DNA of 44,416 nucleotides from Clostridiales bacterium CHKCI006 (GTDB lineage: Bacteria; Bacillota_I; Bacilli_A; Erysipelotrichales; Coprobacillaceae): NCBI GenBank assembly GCA_900018345.1, contig FCNA01000157.1:1-44416 (forward strand), in the 5' to 3' direction. Shown here in pieces: positions 4,100 to 8,534 of the stretch. How positions within the stretch are numbered: the stretch's first letter is position 1; every line of letters begins with the position of its first letter. The translations under genes and the position numbers were made by a program. The notes beneath the pieces were generated by a model. The model searched no databases. It was not told where the DNA came from and was given only the letters and a program-made list of their open reading frames with translations.

Positions 4100-5578
<1,479 letters not shown>

Positions 5579-5642: not shown

Positions 5643-5657
5643 AAGAAAGCGTTTTCT
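5643..5657. promoter_or_regulatory. cre-like catabolite repression site
   Basis: AAGAAAGCGTTTTCT matches the CcpA consensus WTGNAANCGNWNNCW at all but one position. It lies 142 bases upstream of the leftward glucosidase start and immediately before the -35 box of the rightward promoter at 5659, so it could control either gene. The remaining stretch 5510-5642 is AT-rich; I could not identify a convincing glucosidase promoter. Confidence 0.45.
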
Positions 5658-5658
5658 C

Positions 5659-5687
5659 TTGTAACGCTTATTAGGTTATGGTATGAT
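5659..5687 (+). promoter_or_regulatory. Promoter of the P-type ATPase leader
   Basis: TTGTAA (5659-5664), a 17-base spacer and TATGAT (5682-5687). Transcription should start near 5694, giving an untranslated leader of about 205 bases before the ATPase start. Confidence 0.65.
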
Positions 5688-5719
5688 GTAGTCATCATAC
5701 ATGGAGGAGTTGAGGAAAA

Positions 5720-5854
5720 ATGGATGATCACCCGCGAGAATGCTGTTACGTGTCGTTGAATGATTGGATAAGAATATTTGTCAGTTGGTTTAGGGGGTAT
5801 AGTGTAGGACTATGCCTTTTTTGGCTAGCGCCAAGGTTTAATTTACGTTTATAG
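5720..5854 (+). CDS. Putative 44-residue leader peptide ATG-TAG frame
   Basis: An ATG at 5720 follows a good ribosome binding site (GGAGGAGTTGAGGA), and the frame stays open to TAG at 5852-5854. The N-terminus is acidic with an early proline (MDDHPRE), then two cysteines, then a Trp/Phe-rich hydrophobic stretch and a basic C-terminus (PRFNLRL). An intrinsic terminator hairpin (5796-5822) lies wholly inside the frame, so translation could affect transcript termination. I do not recognise a family. It may be a leader peptide, a real small membrane peptide, or chance; the strong ribosome site and close fit to the leader favour a function. Confidence 0.45.
   Translation: MDDHPRECCYVSLNDWIRIFVSWFRGYSVGLCLFWLAPRFNLRL
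5796..5822 (+). terminator. Intrinsic terminator / attenuator in ATPase leader
   Basis: GGTATAGT (5796-5803), loop GTAGG, ACTATGCC (5809-5816) pair over eight positions with one G-T pair, then six T residues (5817-5822). A second small hairpin TTGGC/GCCAA (5821-5834) follows. It lies between promoter and ATPase, so full-length ATPase mRNA requires readthrough. Confidence 0.65.
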
Positions 5855-5855
5855 G

Positions 5856-5899
5856 TCCTTCATCTTTATGAATAGCGTATGAAGAAAGGAAAGATGAAG
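5856..5899 (+). promoter_or_regulatory. Hairpin around the ATPase ribosome binding site
   Basis: CTTCATCTTT (5858-5867) is a perfect complement of AAAGATGAAG (5890-5899), which ends one base before the ATPase ATG at 5901. The likely ribosome site AAAGGA (5885-5890) sits at the loop/stem border, and TCCTT (5856-5860) can alternatively pair with AAGGA (5886-5890). The structure could gate translation of the ATPase. Confidence 0.5.
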
Positions 5900-5900
5900 A

Positions 5901-8534
5901 ATGAAGAGACAAGAAACGGATGACTATTCGTTGTCGATATCGGCAATATACGAGAAATACCAGACCAGTGCAGAAGGATTGAGTGATGACGTGGCCTTGG
6001 CTCGTTTAGAGCGAAATGGCAAAAATCGCCTGCGCCAAAAGCCTAAAAAGACGATATGGAAAATGTTAGTTGAACAGCTCTCCGATGTGATGGTGCTGAT
6101 CTTGATTGCAGCAGCCATCTTGTCAATGGTCTTAAATGAATGGACCGAAGCCATTGTCATTTTGATCATTATTGCTGTTGATGCCATCATTGGGATCGTG
6201 CAGGAGAAAAAGGCCATGGATGCGATGGAAGCCTTAAAGAATATGAGTGCACCGATGGCATTATGCCTTCGCGAAGGAGAAAAAAGTCATATTCCAGCTG
6301 AGGATCTGGTTGTTGGAGATGTTGTATTTATTGAAGCAGGGAGCATTGTACCGGCGGATCTACGCCTGGTGGAAAGCCATCAGCTGCAAATTCAGGAAGC
6401 GAGCCTGACGGGTGAATCTGTACCCGTGCATAAGGATGCCGATCATGTATGTGACAGTCAGACAGTTCTGGGGGATCGCTTAAACATGGCTTACACGTCT
6501 TCCATCGTGACCAATGGTAATGGGGAAGGCATTGTCGTTGCAACAGGCATGGCTACAGAAGTTGGTCATATCGCCCATTTGCTGGAGGAACAGGATGAGC
6601 TGGATACCCCATTAAAACGTAAATTGAATTCAGTAGGGAAAACGTTGAGTGTGGTCGGCATAGGCGTATGTATTGTCATGTTTATCATTGGTTACCTTTA
6701 TGAGAAACCATTGGTACCTCTTTTGATGACCGCGATTTCTTTAGCTATCTCAATCATTCCGGAAGGCTTACCAGCCACTGCAACGATTGTCATGGCATTG
6801 GGCGTTCAGCGGATGGCCAAACAGCATGCCTTAGTGCGTCAGCTACCGGCTGTGGAAACCTTAGGCAGCGCCAGTGTGATCTGTTGTGATAAGACAGGCA
6901 CATTGACGCAAAATAAGATGACGGTGACGCATCTGGCGATAGGGATCAAGCCCTATACTTCGCTTCAAGAAACCAATACGCAAACTCCTGCCTGTCGGCA
7001 TCTGCTGCAGGCGGCCATCTTATGTAATAATGCGAGTCTGGATCCAGATCATCCCGGTGAGGTGCTGGGCGATCCAACCGAAGGAGCGCTCTTGCATCTG
7101 GGCATGACCTGCGGCTTTGATCCGGAGCAGATGGCGGAACACTATCCCAAGGTATATGAACAGGCATTTGATTCTGATCGCAAACGCATGAGTACGGTTC
7201 ACCGGATGGATGACCGTTGGATCGTTTATACCAAGGGCGCTGTGGATGGATTGCTGGCATTGTGCCGCTGGCGTTTAGAAGGAAATCAGATCGTGGAAAT
7301 GCAAGAAACAGATCGCCAGTTGATCCTTGCACAAAGTGAGGATATGTCCGGGCAGGCGCTGCGCGTCTTAGGTTATGCGATGCGTGAATTGGATCAGATC
7401 CCGGATGAGGATGATGCGGATGTGGAAGCTGATCTCATCTATTTAGGAATGTCTGGCATGATTGATCCACCAAGAACAGAGGTTATTGAAGCCATTGAAA
7501 CTTGCCATCAGGCAGGGATTCGTGTCGTGATGATCACCGGTGATCATCAGTCGACAGCCTTAGCGATTGCACGTCAATTACATCTCTATCAGGAAGGCAA
7601 TCTGATTATTTCCGGGACTGAGCTAGATCGGATGACGGATGAGCAGCTGGATGCGGTGGTTTCTAATGTGGCTGTTTTTGCCCGGGTCTCTCCAAGTGAT
7701 AAACTGCGTATCATTTTATCATTGAAACGTGTTGGGGAGATTGCCGCTATGACAGGCGATGGCGTCAATGATTCACCGGCTCTGAAAGCGGCTGATATTG
7801 GAATTGCCATGGGGAAGACCGGTACCGATGTCGCTAAAGATTCGGCAGATATGATCTTGATGGATGATAATTTCACAACGATAGAGTATGCCATTCGCGA
7901 AGGACGCAGGGTCTATCGAAATATCCAAAAGGTCATTCAATTCCTATTGGCAGGAAATATCGCTGAGATACTGACGTTATTTATTGCCACATTATTAAAT
8001 TGGCAGGCACCTATCCTGGCCGTCCATGTACTGTTGATCAACCTGGCAACCGATACTTTGCCGGCCTTAGCTTTAGGGGTTGATCCAGCCAGTAAGAACA
8101 TCATGCGTCATCAGCCGGTCAAATCCAATAGCTTATTTGAAAAAGGGTTGGTACAACGTGTGATCAAGCATGGCTGTTTTATCACTTTAGCGACGATCCT
8201 TGCTTATTTATACGGTCTTTATCAGGATGACTATAGTGCCGGCATGACCATGGCATTTTGTGTCCTAGCCATTTCTCAGCTATTTCATGCATTGAATCAG
8301 CGTTCAAATACGGAATCTATCTTTACTAGTGGAAATGGACATAATATCTGGTTGTTTTTAGCGATGCTGGCTTCAGCCTTGATTCTGGTCGTGGTCTTAG
8401 GCGTGCCATCCGTCCGCGCATTTTTCTCATTATCGTTATTGAGCTTATCACAGTGGGGGGTAGTGGTTCTATTATCCTTATTGCCTTTAATTTTAGTAGA
8501 AGTCAATAAATGGATCATACGTCACCATCGTTAG
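5901..8534 (+). CDS. P-type cation ATPase, Ca2+-type (P2)
   Basis: An 877-residue ion pump in the membrane that uses ATP to export a divalent cation, most likely Ca2+. It has the N-terminal cytoplasmic domain, actuator loop TGES at 170-173, TM4 PEGLP at 287-291, phosphorylation site DKTGT at 330-334, nucleotide-domain KGA near 445, and the hinge TGDGVND at 618-624. TM6 carries N714 and D718 in LINLATDTLP, matching the P2A/P2B calcium pumps. A CPx metal motif is absent. The downstream terminator shows a single-gene unit. Mn2+ or Mg2+ cannot be excluded as substrate. Confidence 0.93.
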   Translation: MKRQETDDYSLSISAIYEKYQTSAEGLSDDVALARLERNGKNRLRQKPKKTIWKMLVEQLSDVMVLILIAAAILSMVLNEWTEAIVILIIIAVDAIIGIVQEKKAMDAMEALKNMSAPMALCLREGEKSHIPAEDLVVGDVVFIEAGSIVPADLRLVESHQLQIQEASLTGESVPVHKDADHVCDSQTVLGDRLNMAYTSSIVTNGNGEGIVVATGMATEVGHIAHLLEEQDELDTPLKRKLNSVGKTLSVVGIGVCIVMFIIGYLYEKPLVPLLMTAISLAISIIPEGLPATATIVMALGVQRMAKQHALVRQLPAVETLGSASVICCDKTGTLTQNKMTVTHLAIGIKPYTSLQETNTQTPACRHLLQAAILCNNASLDPDHPGEVLGDPTEGALLHLGMTCGFDPEQMAEHYPKVYEQAFDSDRKRMSTVHRMDDRWIVYTKGAVDGLLALCRWRLEGNQIVEMQETDRQLILAQSEDMSGQALRVLGYAMRELDQIPDEDDADVEADLIYLGMSGMIDPPRTEVIEAIETCHQAGIRVVMITGDHQSTALAIARQLHLYQEGNLIISGTELDRMTDEQLDAVVSNVAVFARVSPSDKLRIILSLKRVGEIAAMTGDGVNDSPALKAADIGIAMGKTGTDVAKDSADMILMDDNFTTIEYAIREGRRVYRNIQKVIQFLLAGNIAEILTLFIATLLNWQAPILAVHVLLINLATDTLPALALGVDPASKNIMRHQPVKSNSLFEKGLVQRVIKHGCFITLATILAYLYGLYQDDYSAGMTMAFCVLAISQLFHALNQRSNTESIFTSGNGHNIWLFLAMLASALILVVVLGVPSVRAFFSLSLLSLSQWGVVVLLSLLPLILVEVNKWIIRHHR

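Follow-up and report, generated by a model that had tools for sequence, protein, structure and literature searches.

The DNA analysed here (the window: 44,416 nucleotides of contig FCNA01000157.1 from Clostridiales bacterium CHKCI006, forward strand) raises the question of what a short open reading frame with an intrinsic terminator inside it is doing just upstream of a gene for a P-type ATPase. On balance, we consider it probable that the locus works as a translation-dependent transcription attenuator for this cation-pumping ATPase. As far as the sequences go, it carries a conserved leader ORF with a selected acidic N-terminus and a terminator reached by the ORF, an arrangement confined to one ATPase clade.

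A consensus scan predicted the leader promoter at 5659–5687 of the plus strand, with a weak -35 element (TTGTAA), a spacer of 17 nt and a -10 element (TATGAT, 5682–5687) preceded by TG, and it predicted the start of transcription at about 5694. A ribosome-binding site (GGAGGAG..GAGG, 5704–5715, plus strand) is followed by an ORF of 44 codons on the same strand (5720–5854, ATG at 5720, stop codon at 5852–5854), with its ATG about 26 nt past the predicted start, and supported both by its sequence and by conservation in relatives. Its product, MDDHPRECCYVSLNDWIRIFVSWFRGYSVGLCLFWLAPRFNLRL, begins MDDHPRE and has three acidic residues among the first ten. Within this ORF lies an intrinsic terminator (5796–5822, plus strand) with an 8 bp stem (arms GGTATAGT, 5796–5803, and ACTATGCC, 5809–5816), a 5 nt loop (GTAGG) and six T residues (5817–5822). 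The segment 5781–5823 folded with -13 kcal/mol (z of -3.1 against shuffled sequences), and the folding of the whole window UTR was not unusual (z of -0.6), so that the case is carried by conservation and not by folding energy alone. All coordinates agree with those of the original prediction, which had described the 44-codon frame, its strong ribosome-binding site, its distance from the predicted start and the internal terminator. An alternative frame of 11 codons from position 5724 (MITRENAVTCR) was dropped, as it was absent from the relatives.

Two further hairpins were found on the plus strand between the terminator and the ATPase gene. The first, TTTTGGCTAGCGCCAAGG (5819–5836), comes right after the terminator, where a hairpin of another sequence (CTGACCACCGCTGAAAGGCGGTCAG type) is also present in many relatives. 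The second (CTTCATCTTT/AAAGATGAAG, 5858–5899) lies between the leader stop codon and the ATPase start, and consists of a perfect 10 bp inverted repeat (5858–5867/5890–5899; fold z of -2.35) that the original prediction had overlooked; its 3' arm occupies the spacer from the Shine-Dalgarno sequence of the ATPase to its start codon.

A DNA search against 60 relatives revealed no close DNA relative of the window leader, with short matches at the ribosome-binding site of the ATPase alone. The closest orthologues of the window ATPase (59–67% identity) were found in Clostridia, and the ATPases of the window's own taxonomic family were 41–48% identical to it and had no leader; the leaders compared here with that of the window come from other genera. 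In more than 20 Gram-positive genomes, an orthologous ATPase is preceded by a leader built in this way: 22 were detected, making 23 with that of the window (a count that includes several near-copies), and this ruled against the chance occurrence of the arrangement. The common layout includes a promoter, a ribosome-binding site, an ORF starting with MDD, a terminator and the ATPase, the promoters being mostly near-consensus (TTGACA-17-TATAAT-like) at the same distance, with 26–37 nt from predicted start to ATG. Every leader starts with MDD, MDDADSSDADR being the commonest beginning, and the number of acidic residues after the methionine ranges from 3 to 6 (5–6 in the common leader and 3 in that of the window). 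Examples are MDDLHDLRRYIKLYN... (Anaerofustis, L011), MDDSDCTDTFDARCLK... (L007), MDDSDESDTDRKIKTLK... (L144), MDDADSSDADRSNIHCKLNTFYI (L148) and MDDADSSDADRNLTNQNLYMV (L150).

Pattern scans added more cases. Scanned for a DNA pattern of the acidic codons alone, 391 genomes gave two matches and no control match: one was a known leader and the other a new one (L152, MDDTDSSDADR...) with promoter and terminator, on a contig that ends ahead of the downstream gene. A second pattern, joining start and terminator, gave nine matches in 394 genomes, again with no control match, of which five were known ATPase leaders and four were new ones with fragments of this ATPase gene downstream. Wherever the contig extended far enough, the gene downstream of a match was always this ATPase. 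In L166, the leader is fused to an internally deleted ATPase gene, and in L149 a single TAA interrupts the ATPase frame; both could be the consequence of assembly errors or correspond to pseudogenes.

Conservation was concentrated at codons 1–11, the terminator and the ATPase start, with little else conserved in the leader region. DNA identity among 13 leaders was 0.96 for codons 1–3 and 0.75 for codons 4–11, and fell to 0.40 for codons 12–17, the level of the unconserved flanks. The pN/pS ratio for codons 2–11 of the relatives was 0.35 in the frame of the ORF vs 0.8–1.2 in the two shifted frames, and in the Eubacterium-type trio all the changes in these codons were synonymous. Because codons 1–11 are conserved and purifying selection appears in the ORF frame only, the selected part of the peptide is, by this evidence, its acidic N-terminus. 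The original prediction had stressed an acidic peptide with an early proline; the acidic part held, in the form of a conserved run of Asp, but the proline of the window peptide is not conserved among the leaders. The alignment of relatives proposed there as a check on peptide and stem gave a positive answer for both: about the first 11 residues are kept and the terminator stem covaries, with compensatory changes in 6 of 9 consensus pairs.

Of 14 lineages, 13 keep the ORF open as far as the terminator, with 5.5 expected from shuffling, vs 1 and 2 of 14 for the other two frames; in the fourteenth lineage, the ORF ends 5 nt short of the terminator. Relative to the first base of the terminator 5' arm, the stop codon lies between 5 nt upstream and 113 nt downstream in all 18 leaders measured; the arm itself begins 57–80 nt past the leader start codon and 29–62 nt downstream of the last acidic codon. 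The distance from predicted start to terminator is about 130–165 nt, and 88–116 nt of leader precede the terminator arm. A classical antiterminator was rejected, since the 5' arm pairs with upstream sequences no more than in shuffled leaders. An amino-acid attenuator of the trp/his type was discarded as well, the window leader having no codon run and no alternative antiterminator.

According to the attenuator model, RNA polymerase would start about 26 nt ahead of the short ORF encoding the acidic MDD... peptide. A ribosome that clears the acidic codons and trails the polymerase to or past the terminator 5' arm would mask the hairpin, and the ATPase would be transcribed, whereas drop-off or stalling within the acidic stretch would leave bare RNA able to fold the terminator, and the ATPase would be off. 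The simplest reading is that passage of the ribosome means ON and drop-off means OFF, the opposite of MgtL, because the ribosome must pass the acidic codons to cover the terminator and no replacement structure was found. The leader peptide would serve as a sensor of the stability of the elongating ribosome; the likely signal would be the concentration of Mg2+ or of any divalent cation able to take its place, with the pump ON at high cation, as would suit an efflux pump. We infer from this arrangement the masking of the terminator by translation, the sign, the destabilisation of ribosomes in these bacteria and the cation signal, the link between the acidic peptide and cation sensing being drawn by analogy. 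Early Asp and Glu residues destabilise E. coli ribosomes and high Mg2+ counteracts this (PMC9718836, PMC11282234); drop-off at acidic residues underlies the Mg2+ response of MgtL and is opposed by bL31 and EttA (PMC9718836, PMC11282234, PMC8092293), and Asp2 and Glu5 destabilise the ribosome in Salmonella mgtQ (PMC8092293). It is this dependence of ribosome stability on Mg2+, bL31 and EttA in E. coli and Salmonella that makes Mg2+ or another divalent cation the likely signal. Such destabilisation has been demonstrated in E. coli, Salmonella and yeast/human systems, and a full-text literature search, covering few subscription papers, found no report of acidic-leader ribosome destabilisation in Bacillota. 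By analogy, the cell probably uses the Mg2+-dependent passage of the ribosome through an acidic peptide to decide on the synthesis of the pump.

The main physical doubt concerning the attenuator model is that a ribosome may rarely be near enough to mask a terminator about 130–165 nt from the start of transcription. Masking is doubtful because Bacillota are classed as having runaway transcription (PMC13323073) and because no pause motif is shared: the attenuator of B. subtilis yxjB requires NusG pausing (PMC6851288), and the NusG-type TTNTTT motif is not common to the leaders, being found only in two Anaerofustis-type ones. It also counts against the model that the window leader itself has just three acidic residues among its first ten and could be compared only with leaders of other genera.

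MgtL, the leader of mgtA in E. coli and Salmonella, is also a short ORF with early acidic residues ahead of a P-type cation ATPase, and there too expression is set by premature termination of transcription (PMC11282234). Termination at mgtA is, however, Rho-dependent, its place being taken here by an intrinsic terminator with covarying stem and T tract that overlaps or adjoins the end of the ORF; the target of MgtL is a Mg2+-type (P3B) ATPase and not a type IIA enzyme of a Gram-positive host, the peptides share nothing in sequence past their acidity, and the sign predicted here is opposite. The destabilising motif of MgtL is EPDP (PMC11282234), and no such motif was found in the MDD leaders compared by eye. 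The leader resembles the MgtL class in its way of working, a cation ATPase being preceded by codons for early acidic residues, but is not a member of MgtL, since it lacks EPDP (by eye), has an intrinsic terminator and probably differs in sign. The analogy made in the original prediction remains the best available lead as regards early acidic destabilisation, but the geometry predicts the reverse response.

The MgtQ uORF of Salmonella mgtB is likewise short, has destabilising Asp2 and Glu5 codons and lies ahead of a cation ATPase whose ribosome-binding site is in a hairpin (PMC8092293), comparable to the hairpin at the ATPase start described here. MgtQ acts on translation via alternative stem-loops inside the operon, whereas the ORF of the present leaders contains or adjoins a transcription terminator, with no alternative pairing detected. 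In bmrB-bmrCD, yxjB and vmlR of B. subtilis, drug-stalled ribosomes favour an antiterminator. These are cases from the Bacillota in which translation of a leader decides intrinsic termination (PMC4191407, PMC6851288, PMC9226507), as proposed here, although the present leaders have no antiterminator and no link to drugs, their conserved element being the acidic peptide.

Could the leader respond to something other than cations? The acidic peptide might be a hard-to-translate stretch that senses aspartate supply, EttA-like ABC-F factors or a translation inhibitor, a possibility that we regard as unlikely, though not negligible. EttA relieves pausing at early acidic residues and thus sets mgtA expression (PMC11282234), and the known Gram-positive leader attenuators respond to ribosome inhibitors (PMC4191407, PMC6851288). 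However, the leader was found only ahead of one cation-pump clade, that of the window has neither a single-codon run nor an antiterminator, and ribosomes starved or arrested early in the ORF would leave the pump off.

Alternatively, the sign could be that of MgtL (low Mg2+ = ON): ribosomes lost or arrested at the acidic codons would switch on the pump by way of an unrecognised RNA rearrangement or ribosome queuing. The enterobacterial mgtL and mgtQ leaders, which also control P-type ATPases, work in this direction (PMC11282234, PMC8092293), but in our leaders nothing competes with the terminator, whose 5' arm pairs upstream at the level of shuffled sequences, a ribosome held at codons 2–11 stops short of an arm 57–80 nt past the start codon, and the stretch from the acidic codons to the terminator is not conserved. 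We judge this sign to be distinctly improbable.

A metal-sensing riboswitch, or another structured aptamer in which the ORF is incidental, was rejected and seems very improbable. In accordance with the original prediction, which had seen neither a yybP-ykoY nor an M-box element, no Rfam match was obtained, and the GGGAGTA motif of the conserved yybP-ykoY loop was absent from 18 of 18 leaders. The silence of Rfam is weak when taken alone, as Rfam also missed relatives bearing yybP-ykoY-like motifs. The M-box gave no Rfam match either, and its aptamer is longer than the 88–116 nt available up to the terminator arm. Only 26–37 nt precede the ORF, most of the conservation is at codons 1–11, the terminator and the ATPase start, and the changes in codons 2–11 obey the reading frame. 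What speaks for a riboswitch is the presence of yybP-ykoY-like leaders, by motif, ahead of 27 more distant ATPases. Another alternative, a plain translated uORF over the terminator giving constitutive fine-tuning in response to no signal, is hard to credit, given that nothing of the peptide has been conserved but its D/E-rich N-terminus, of a kind that proteomes generally avoid (PMC9718836).

The 27 type IIA ATPases just mentioned (L074, L097–L101, L103–L108, L110, L111, L118, L124, L126, L127, L130–L136, L140 and L141) have within about 170 nt upstream the motifs GGGGAGTAG ... CGTCA..ACG ... CCGG ... CAAGACC. Rfam gave no match at these loci, even at an E value of 5 for the eight scanned so, and their leaders are either divergent Mn2+ riboswitches or reflect a gap in the Rfam search. 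The yybP-ykoY riboswitch responds to Mn2+ and controls genes of Mn2+ homeostasis (PMC11087558); its motif precedes many relatives 40–48% identical to the window ATPase, but is absent from all the leaders of the leader-bearing clade.

The regulated gene (5901–8534, plus strand) encodes a type IIA P-type ATPase of 877 aa, identified by TIGR01522, Pfam domains (E1-E2_ATPase etc.) and structural neighbourhood. It scored 695.8 bits against the PMR1-type TIGR01522, under the curated cut-off of 798.3, and the nearest solved structure was that of the Listeria Ca2+-ATPase LMCA1 (lmo0841). The SERCA ligands E309, N768, E771, N796 and D800 are kept, among them all those of Ca2+ site II (E309, N796 and D800), and Q replaces E908. 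In 13 of 17 leader-bearing ATPases (L143–L148, L150 and L153–L158), on the contrary, the TM6 aspartate corresponding to D800 is replaced by Ala and a TM8 His by Arg, with the motifs NLATATLPA (TM6) and SQMLRAFNQRS (TM8), whereas all other aligned ATPases, including that of the window, both Anaerofustis-type proteins and that of L007, keep the aspartate. These two replacements suggest a change in the transported ion. As 13 of 17 pumps have lost the key Ca2+ ligand, the substrate of the leader-bearing family is uncertain, and the calcium-type pump of the original prediction is an unsafe description for the family, although the window enzyme keeps that ligand.

In a tree built by a quick method with SH-aLRT support only, all leaders fell into one ATPase clade of 23 rows (support 97). 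Leader presence required three changes on this tree, against a mean of 6.2 after shuffling, and none of 500 shuffles was as low, a pattern consistent with a single gain and two losses, the latter in L010 and in a group whose ATPase comes directly after another gene. The nesting of the window ATPase among those of Clostridia suggests that it was acquired by transfer. No MDD leader precedes the ATPase of the basal relative L159; a different possible leader ORF, MPQKKYDKQVVFLDASMIKRDF, was noticed there (about 1275–1340), with a T-rich tract and a possible hairpin downstream.

At the ATPase start of L143–L150, L153, L155–L158 and L007, we detected a hairpin, GTGATTTATCC-N5-GGATAATCAC, with the start codon in its loop and 3' arm; 92% of its cells are paired, and none of the slid controls reached its covariation score. 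This covarying hairpin is analogous to that at 5858–5899 of the window, although different in sequence, and likely provides a second, translational layer of control.

A further step, which we put forward as speculative and rather doubtful, would be a Gram-positive acidic-peptide cation sensor with the sign of MgtL reversed (high cation to efflux ATPase), in which the pump of the largest subclade, whose changed ion site has Ala in place of D800 and an Arg in TM8, may export Mg2+. Enterobacteria sense Mg2+ through acidic nascent chains that destabilise the ribosome (mgtL, mgtQ) (PMC11282234, PMC8092293). If such a leader is conserved in Clostridia and in Erysipelotrichaceae-like genomes, the principle would have had more than one origin, here with a different type of terminator and probably with the sign reversed. 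The leader would also add a case of ribosome-coupled attenuation to a phylum whose polymerase is considered to outrun the ribosomes, and would offer a handle on the ion carried by an unstudied clade of pumps with an altered ion site.

Two other elements were observed around the leader promoter of the window. A perfect 8 bp inverted repeat, GTATGATG-TAGT-CATCATAC (5681–5700), spans the -10 element and the predicted start and is a possible operator; inspection by eye found no counterpart in the relatives. In addition, the sequence GAAAGCGTTTTCTC (5647–5660) resembles a catabolite (cre) site and is located between the leader promoter and a divergent 6-phospho-beta-glucosidase gene (4100–5509, minus strand).
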